DNA of 64,000 nucleotides from Geothrix sp. PMB-07 (GTDB taxonomy: Bacteria; Acidobacteriota; Holophagae; Holophagales; Holophagaceae), in contig NZ_CP132333.1 in assembly GCF_030758935.1 (NCBI RefSeq), positions 1,550,992-1,614,991 on the forward strand, written 5' to 3'. Of this stretch, positions 41,811 to 43,577 are shown piece by piece. A program made the translations under genes and the position numbers. The notes beneath the pieces were generated by a model. It searched no databases. It worked only from the letters and a program-made list of their open reading frames with translations, and was not told the DNA's origin. The number at the start of each line of letters is the position of its first letter. The first letter of the stretch is position 1.

Positions 41811-41843
41811 TATGATGAAGATCCTGACCAACCTGGTCAGGAT
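41811..41843 (+). promoter_or_regulatory. -10 box and perfect inverted repeat at ispH-ubiA
   Basis: TATGAT at 41811-41816 is a good -10, though no convincing -35 is seen. Four bases later a perfect ten-base inverted repeat with a three-base loop begins (ATCCTGACCA-acc-TGGTCAGGAT, 41821-41843). It covers the expected transcription start and ends 12 bases before the ATG. It could be an operator over +1 or a 5' RNA hairpin next to the ribosome binding site. Confidence 0.6.
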
Positions 41844-41855
41844 TCAGGGGCTGCC

Positions 41856-43577
41856 ATGAAGGTCATCGTCGCCAAGACCGCGGGTTTTTGCTGGGGCGTG
41901 AAGCGCGCCATGGACGCGGTGCTGGAGGCCTCCGTGCGCAATGACGGCCGACCGGTGCAGACGCTGGGGCCGCTCATCCACAACCCCCAGGCCCTGGAAC
42001 TCATCGGCAAGCGGGGCGTGGCCGTGGCCGAGGCCCCCGACAAGGTGCAGAACGGCACCGTGGTGATCCGGGCCCATGGCATTCCCATCCAGGACTTGCG
42101 GGGCCTCAAGGAGCGTCAGGCCAAGGGCGAGCTGACCATCGTGAATGCCACGTGCCCCGAAGTGGCGAAGGTGCACCACAAGATCAAGAAATGGAGCCCC
42201 AAGGGCTATTTCACCGTGATTCTCGGCAGCCATGGCCATGCGGAAAGCGTGGCCCACCGCAGCTTTGCAGAGCACGGCTCGGTCATTGTGGCCAACATGG
42301 CCGAGGCCGAAGCGCTCACCGACGAGCAGTTGAAGAAGGTGCTGGTGGTGGCCCAGACCACCTTCACGGTGAAGGATTACCACGCCATCACCGATTACAT
42401 CCGCGGTCGCGCCGGCGATGCGGTGTTCGAGAACACCATCTGCGAAGACACCTGGATGCGGCAGGATGAGGCCAAGGAACTGGCCCGCACGGTGGATGCG
42501 GTCATCGTCGTGGGCGGCAAGGCTTCCAGCAACACCAAACACCTGGCCGAACTGGCCCATCACTACGGCAAACCGGTGCAGTACGTGGAGACCGCCTGTG
42601 AATTGGATCTCAGCGCCTTCACGGGCCGGGAGACCGTCGGTGTGCTGGCGGGCGCCTCGACTCCCACCTGGCTGGTGGACGAGGTGGTGGATGTGTTGGA
42701 GCAGTTGGGTGACGGCCCCAGCCGCTGGCGCAGCTTCCTGCAGGGCGCGTTTGGAAGCTCTTCGCTGATGGCCGTGGGCGCGGGGTTGATGACCCTGGGG
42801 GTCCACCGCTGGCTGGGCCTGCCGCTGGGCTGGCGCTATCCCCTGCTCACTGCCGCGTATGTGCTGGCCATGTACCTGCTCAGTCCTTTCCTGGATCCGC
42901 TGGGCCTGGGCGCCAAGGGACCGGCCCGAGCCCGTTTCCTGGAGCGCAACCGAAAGGTGCTGTTGGCCTCGGCCCTGGCGGCCCTGGCGCTGACCTTCGG
43001 TTTGGCCGCCAGCCTGGGCGGAAAAGTTTTGAGCATCGTCGCCGCCGCCTCCTTGGTGGGCGCCGCCTACAAGCAGCGCATCCGCCTGGGTGGCCGGGAG
43101 TGGGCCCTGCGCCGGATTCCCGGCTCGAAGGATGTGGTGGTGGCCCTGGCCCTGGCCACGGTGGCGGTCATCACACCGGTCTGGCAGGAAGGACGCGCCT
43201 GGGATCTGCGGGCTTTCGCGGCCATCTTCCTGGTGGGCGTGTTGGCTTTTGTGCGCACGGTGATCTACGAGATCCACGACATGCAGAACGATCAGATCGT
43301 GGGCAAAGAGACGCTGCCCATCCTGCTGGGGAAGCGCGCCACCAAGGCCGTGCTCCTGAGCCTTCTGGGCACCCTGCTGGCCGGAACCCTCTGGCTCACC
43401 TTCGACAATCGCACCCATGGACATCCCATGGCTGTGGCCCTTGTGCTGGTCATCTGCGCCGCCTACCCGGTGATCTACCTCTGGCTGTACCACGAGCGCT
43501 TCACCACCGGCAGGACTCGCTTCGAGTTGAGCGTGGATCTGAGTTTTTACCTCGTGGGCCTGCTGGCGCTGGTCTGA
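41856..43577 (+). CDS. ispH: IspH-UbiA fusion: HMBPP reductase with C-terminal prenyltransferase-like domain
   Basis: Residues 1-285 are IspH, which reduces HMBPP to IPP and DMAPP at the end of the MEP pathway. The three cluster-ligand cysteines are C12 (GFCWGVKRA), C100 (NATCPEV) and C196 (NTICEDTW); HxE (HGHAE) and SSNT motifs are also present. Residues about 300-573 are a membrane domain with seven to nine helices of the UbiA type. It has IPGSKDVVVALAL near 421-433 and the second Asp-rich motif EIHDMQND at 472-479 followed by GKETLPILLGK. The first Asp motif looks degenerate (SPFLDPLG near 343-350). The reading frame is continuous across the joint. The prenyl acceptor is unknown. Confidence 0.9.
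   Translation: MKVIVAKTAGFCWGVKRAMDAVLEASVRNDGRPVQTLGPLIHNPQALELIGKRGVAVAEAPDKVQNGTVVIRAHGIPIQDLRGLKERQAKGELTIVNATCPEVAKVHHKIKKWSPKGYFTVILGSHGHAESVAHRSFAEHGSVIVANMAEAEALTDEQLKKVLVVAQTTFTVKDYHAITDYIRGRAGDAVFENTICEDTWMRQDEAKELARTVDAVIVVGGKASSNTKHLAELAHHYGKPVQYVETACELDLSAFTGRETVGVLAGASTPTWLVDEVVDVLEQLGDGPSRWRSFLQGAFGSSSLMAVGAGLMTLGVHRWLGLPLGWRYPLLTAAYVLAMYLLSPFLDPLGLGAKGPARARFLERNRKVLLASALAALALTFGLAASLGGKVLSIVAAASLVGAAYKQRIRLGGREWALRRIPGSKDVVVALALATVAVITPVWQEGRAWDLRAFAAIFLVGVLAFVRTVIYEIHDMQNDQIVGKETLPILLGKRATKAVLLSLLGTLLAGTLWLTFDNRTHGHPMAVALVLVICAAYPVIYLWLYHERFTTGRTRFELSVDLSFYLVGLLALV

Follow-up and report, generated by a model that had tools for sequence, protein, structure and literature searches.

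In the window, the 64,000-nucleotide stretch of Geothrix sp. PMB-07 DNA analyzed here, one reading frame runs from an ATG at 41856 to a stop at 43575-43577, with 573 codons uninterrupted by stops. Its product is an IspH-UbiA fusion, a single polypeptide in which IspH is followed by a UbiA-like membrane domain. Pfam, the AlphaFold2 model, and Foldseek concur on this two-domain architecture, and the model itself, derived from a 56-row alignment, had a mean pLDDT of 91.1 and a pTM of 0.87. A perfect palindrome precedes the gene, beginning four bases after a TATGAT and ending 12 bases before the ATG. The features of the locus are collected in Table 1.

Table 1. Features of the ispH-ubiA locus, in positions of the window.
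Feature	Position	Strand	Details
TATGAT, probable -10 element	41811..41816	+	Inferred from upstream regions of relatives
Palindrome ATCCTGACC-AACCT-GGTCAGGAT (GAC-N7-GTC), probable operator	41821..41843	.	YGAC-N7-GTCR in 43/45 upstream regions
ispH-ubiA fusion gene	41856..43577	+	573 aa, stop included in coordinates; single ORF, one frame in relatives too
IspH (LytB) domain	41856..42704	+	Residues 1-283; Pfam LYTB, TIGR00216, Foldseek
UbiA-fold membrane domain	42711..43574	+	Residues 286-573; Pfam UbiA, AlphaFold2 helices 290-572, Foldseek
Degenerate first Asp motif	42882..42908	+	Residues 343-351, S343 PFL D347 PLG L351; canonical NxxxDxxxD
Y405, counterpart of near-universal UbiA Tyr (Y139 of AfUbiA)	43068..43070	+	98/101 fused members; alignment
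K425 of IPGSK motif	43128..43130	+	99/101 fused members
Second Asp motif, E472-x2-D475-x3-D479	43269..43292	+	Residues 472-479; D475 68/101, D479 98/101

We considered whether an error in sequencing or assembly had run two separate genes together. The fused frame was recovered at full length, stop-free, and with 73-89% identity in 23 of 25 genomes of the same genus, which excludes both chance and a join error. Since it also recurs beyond the genus, both across the family and in further phyla, a faulty join can be put aside with near certainty. The two same-genus genomes lacking a match were 72% and 86% complete. Within our sample of the phylum, the family's other genera were represented by 13 genomes, all of which had the fusion, and so did a second family of the same class; a third family of that class had no fusion, and its free IspH sits on a distant branch. 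A chance hydrophobic extension after IspH was ruled out by the Pfam UbiA match together with the fold match. An earlier note, made from the letters of the window, had proposed IspH followed by a UbiA-type membrane domain in one 573-codon frame and had suggested checking close relatives. The architecture was confirmed by the reading frame, Pfam LYTB and UbiA, and AlphaFold2 with Foldseek, and the relatives carry fused rather than split genes.

IspH converts HMBPP to IPP and DMAPP, the final enzymatic step of isoprenoid synthesis in bacteria. The first half of the fusion matched Pfam LYTB (PF02401) over residues 3-281 (E = 3.7e-79, 266 bits versus a cut-off of 24.5) and the NCBIfam IspH model TIGR00216 (252.9 bits versus a cut-off of 187.85), and Foldseek placed this half of the model close to E. 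coli IspH (3T0G, TMt 0.87). The earlier note had read the cluster cysteines C12, C100, and C196 as signs of a complete IspH; all three are indeed present, as are H42, H74, H128, E130, T168, S224/S225/N226, and S268, which we take to be further active-site residues. Judged by sequence, the fusion protein is a complete IspH with intact catalytic residues. The fusion gene is the sole LYTB gene in the genome, ruling out a second, free IspH for housekeeping; IspG/GcpE is encoded as well. Searches of 20 other fusion genomes found no free IspH beyond pieces of the fusion gene.

The assignment of the second half hinged on a UbiA profile match within residues 300-573. Pfam UbiA matched residues 368-548 above its cut-off (E = 6.5e-14, 52.3 bits versus 34.2), and the NCBIfam prenyltransferase matches to this half all fell below theirs. 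Foldseek aligned the membrane half with UbiAs of A. pernix and A. fulgidus at TMt 0.52-0.68 (0.68 for 4OD4 and ~0.55 for 4TQ3/4TQ4), and the HMGCR-UBIAD1 complex was among the lower-ranked matches of the fusion model. Residues 286-573 are thereby modeled as a UbiA fold. Like the prenyltransferases AfUbiA (4TQ3/4TQ4) and ApUbiA (4OD4/4OD5), the domain has a helical membrane fold, the conserved Tyr, and the second Asp motif; unlike them, it has an incomplete NDxxDxxxD and an attached IspH, and identity to them is only ~15%.

Active-site positions were assigned by a profile-profile alignment of fused domains with stand-alone UbiAs, which equates S343 with N68, D347 with D72, Y405 with Y139, and D475/D479 with the second motif. 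All residue counts come from one alignment of 101 fused members picked by similarity, and the frequencies are biased accordingly. The window protein has the second DxxxD motif, and its first motif, canonically NDxxDxxxD with Mg-binding N68 and D72, reads S343-x3-D347-x3-L351. This register bears out the claim of the earlier note that the first motif is degenerate and the second (472-479) present. A full NxxxDxxxD occurred in none of the 101 fused members, those from Desulfobacterota included, compared with 29 of 31 stand-alone UbiAs of the same class; the two exceptions among these controls were close variants, both from the window's own genome. N was found at position 343 in 88/101 members, D347 in 49/101, and both (NxxxD) in 40/101. 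D475 and D479 occurred together in 68/101, and all four Mg positions (N343, D347, D475, and D479) were held by 29/101. R467 was kept in 90/101.

Mutational data on related proteins indicate what these positions do. AfUbiA binds Mg through N68 and D72 of the first motif and D198 and D202 of the second; N68A and D72A abolish GPP binding, and mutating the MenA counterparts of all four positions wholly or nearly eliminates function (PMC4106721). The Ser that the window protein carries at the N68 position is the same change as UBIAD1 N102S, at the start of the N102-xxx-D motif, which blunts activity and lowers GGPP affinity (PMC9314443). The third position of the first motif is not decisive because UBIAD1, which has Gly there (N102-xxx-D-xxx-G), is active (PMC9314443). 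The subfamily as a whole lacks an intact first Asp motif, which is new evidence that the membrane half may serve more for anchoring than for catalysis.

When the C-terminal half alone was searched against all GTDB r220 contigs with alignment A3 (the broader alignment A1 being too divergent), 79 of 80 loci were fused to IspH in-frame, and the one unfused-looking locus (L174) starts at a contig end. The membrane domain was essentially never found apart from IspH. The labels of the loci included Desulfobacterota, Nitrospinota, Nitrospirae, Smithella, Planctomycetota, and candidate division B38 bins. The phylum to which Dethiosulfatarculus belongs was sampled with 148 genomes, 135 of which gave a total of 141 IspH matches; 64 of these lay in ORFs of 540-645 aa. 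A maximum likelihood tree of 82 IspH domains, obtained by a quick search with no bootstrap and having long branches, gathered 55/55 fused rows and three rows scored as unfused into one set of 58 (SH-aLRT 99). L223, one of these three, does carry a fused membrane domain, which has diverged so far that the profile misses it. The IspH half of the window protein lies in this clade with the sulfate-reducer fusions, as expected under common descent, and the pattern is best fit by a single ancient fusion event followed by loss or erosion.

This kind of fusion has been known since 2015, when 47 examples (PT_UbiA_5) were reported, all from sulfate-reducing anaerobes (Rao et al. 2015, PMC4746011). Those authors described two DxxxD repeats and separate UbiA/MenA in the genomes, and proposed that the UbiA part sets IspH at the membrane or takes its products, so the idea of tethering and local supply was also published then (PMC4746011). 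We found one further use of the term in the literature. The window fusion resembles those of sulfate reducers in having IspH first and the UbiA-like domain second, in its length class, in an IspH half that shares a clade with Desulfobacterota, and in the presence of a separate UbiA in the genome. Unlike in the 2015 description, fusions are not limited to sulfate reducers but also occur in this lineage and in Nitrospinota/Nitrospirota-labelled bins, and whereas two DxxxD repeats were described there, neither the window protein nor any other of the aligned members has a complete first motif.

Three further UbiA genes are encoded in the genome besides the fusion, in answer to the question raised in the earlier note of whether a separate ubiA/menA exists. 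One is a UbiA-like/MqnP-type polyprenyltransferase gene above its cut-off (TIGR01475, 272.6 bits versus 180.8); the remaining two are CtaB-like, below cut-off, and weakly chlorophyll-synthase-like. The quinone and haem pathways can thus be served by separate UbiAs, and the fusion is unlikely to replace the quinone prenyltransferase, given that the UbiA-like/MqnP-type gene has the full motif. No shared isoprenoid partner recurs next to fusion genes in other phyla, where the recurring neighbors resemble ParA/ParB, an acyltransferase, and replication or housekeeping genes.

The palindrome upstream of ispH-ubiA is widely shared. YGAC-N7-GTCR was present in 34/34 distinct upstream regions from the same genus and in 9/11 from the rest of the family, versus an expectation from shuffles of 0.2 of 45 regions, and its distance to the start was ~31 bases in nearly every case; the second family of the class did not show it. 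Its GAC-N7-GTC core is the same as that bound upstream of isc and suf by RisR of Myxococcus, an Rrf2 regulator and [4Fe-4S] protein (PMC9973013). Seven Rrf2 proteins are encoded in the genome, and their presence together with the conserved RisR-type core makes it likely, by analogy, that ispH-ubiA, itself the gene of an Fe-S enzyme, is controlled by an Rrf2 protein. The exact core of the palindrome is present just once in the genome. A peroxiredoxin-like gene (L239) and a U32-peptidase-like gene (L242) have near copies of it upstream.

Some fusions have eroded membrane domains. Two loci, L227:2852-4501 (+) and L221:399-2087 (-), keep IspH and a hydrophobic C-terminal half with no Pfam UbiA match, and the IspH tree places both with the UbiA fusions. 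A second, diverged IspH-UbiA paralogue occurs in two genomes of the family (L103:1027-2601 (+) in G306 and L104:2418-3968 (-) in G338); these copies lack Y405 and K425 and are C-terminally shorter. IspH is intact in all four. Retention of the membrane part where the chemistry is gone favors an anchoring role.

The reading we favor, with a probability just short of even, is that the fusion is the cell's only IspH, fixed to the membrane by a UbiA-fold pseudo-prenyltransferase and probably under Rrf2-type control. The UbiA-fold domain, descended from a prenyltransferase and having lost the complete prenyl-diphosphate/Mg site, would hold IspH on the cytoplasmic side of the membrane. This would bring IPP/DMAPP production to the site where prenyl lipids are made and perhaps also place the reduction of the Fe-S enzyme IspH at the membrane, with an Rrf2-type Fe-S regulator probably setting expression. 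Membrane localization, loss of prenyl transfer, and a benefit from tethering are what we infer here. In the earlier note the domain was called UbiA-type and prenyltransferase-like: its identity stands, based on Pfam and fold, whereas a working prenyltransferase is not supported by the incomplete first motif, and the note's other suggestion of an anchor or altered chemistry gains support from that same degeneracy. Two patterns in the alignments nonetheless argue against a mere anchor. Y405, K425, and D479 are each kept in at least 97% of members, with R467 at about 90%, which an anchor would not require. Moreover, median identity to the window genome within the genus was 82.3% for the membrane domain, 84.0% for the stand-alone UbiA, and 92.6% for the IspH half, putting conservation of the membrane domain roughly level with that of a stand-alone UbiA, except in G013, where it was only 53%.

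These patterns would suit a prenyltransferase that is active despite its atypical first motif, the fusion supplying an IPP/DMAPP-derived donor locally, as Rao et al. proposed. That Tyr, Lys, and the final Asp hardly vary suggests that a pocket is still used in most lineages, the Foldseek match is to UbiA, constraint within the genus equals that on the stand-alone UbiA, the third motif position can be dispensable, as in UBIAD1, and 29/101 members hold all four Mg-binding positions. However, 72/101 members, the window protein included, are missing one or more of these four, some fusions are without any UbiA landmark, and there is neither a linked acceptor pathway nor a recurrent isoprenoid neighbor. 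We consider an atypical enzyme rather unlikely, though a serious contender.

It is improbable, in our judgment, that the UbiA-like domain is instead a sensor, tuning the activity or stability of IspH when it binds a prenyl diphosphate or a lipid product that it does not turn over. Such a role would suit a pseudoenzyme-like pocket that retains Tyr, Lys, and Asp and is covalently joined to a late pathway enzyme, and there is a precedent in UBIAD1, which senses GGPP to control HMG-CoA reductase (PMC9314443) and whose complex with HMGCR was matched by Foldseek. In both cases, a key enzyme of the isoprenoid pathway is physically linked to a UbiA-fold protein; unlike the window fusion, the UBIAD1-HMG-CoA reductase pairing is non-covalent, eukaryotic, and part of the mevalonate pathway, and sensing is shown there but conjecture here. 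Against a sensor, the window domain is without first-motif residues that AfUbiA needs for diphosphate binding, and the fusion persists in lineages whose site is erased. The specific version in which a prenyl-diphosphate-sensing pseudoenzyme feeds back on IspH, as a covalent bacterial counterpart of UBIAD1-HMG-CoA reductase control, we rate slightly lower still. Erosion in some lineages, set against constraint and invariant residues elsewhere, leads us to rank the anchor first, the atypical enzyme second, and the sensor third.

Because the Mg/prenyl-diphosphate site is never complete in the 101 members and is lost outright in some lineages, tethering or sensing should be tested before prenyl transfer. 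Expression of the full-length IspH-UbiA protein failed in the 2015 work, and fusions outside sulfate reducers widen the choice of organisms for functional tests. New here are the fusion in this phylum and in Nitrospinota/Nitrospirota-labelled and other bins, with IspH halves of one clade; a domain that essentially never stands alone; a first motif incomplete throughout the subfamily, with every UbiA landmark gone in some members; and a promoter palindrome shared within the family.

IspH-RPS1 fusions of Clostridia and Fusobacterium are similar in that IspH has an extra C-terminal domain, and IspH activity there is independent of the partner (PMC4746011). Unlike the membrane domain here, that partner is ribosomal protein S1, which is soluble and unrelated to UbiA. 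At L226:3411-5137 (-), an unfused IspH lies inside the fusion clade, and by eye the overlapping downstream gene in this single case resembles squalene/phytoene synthase. In a relative (G024), L113:727-2298 (-) encodes another kind of UbiA fusion, ~524 aa long, in which the N-terminal half resembles, by eye, a flavodoxin-fold NAD(P)H oxidoreductase.
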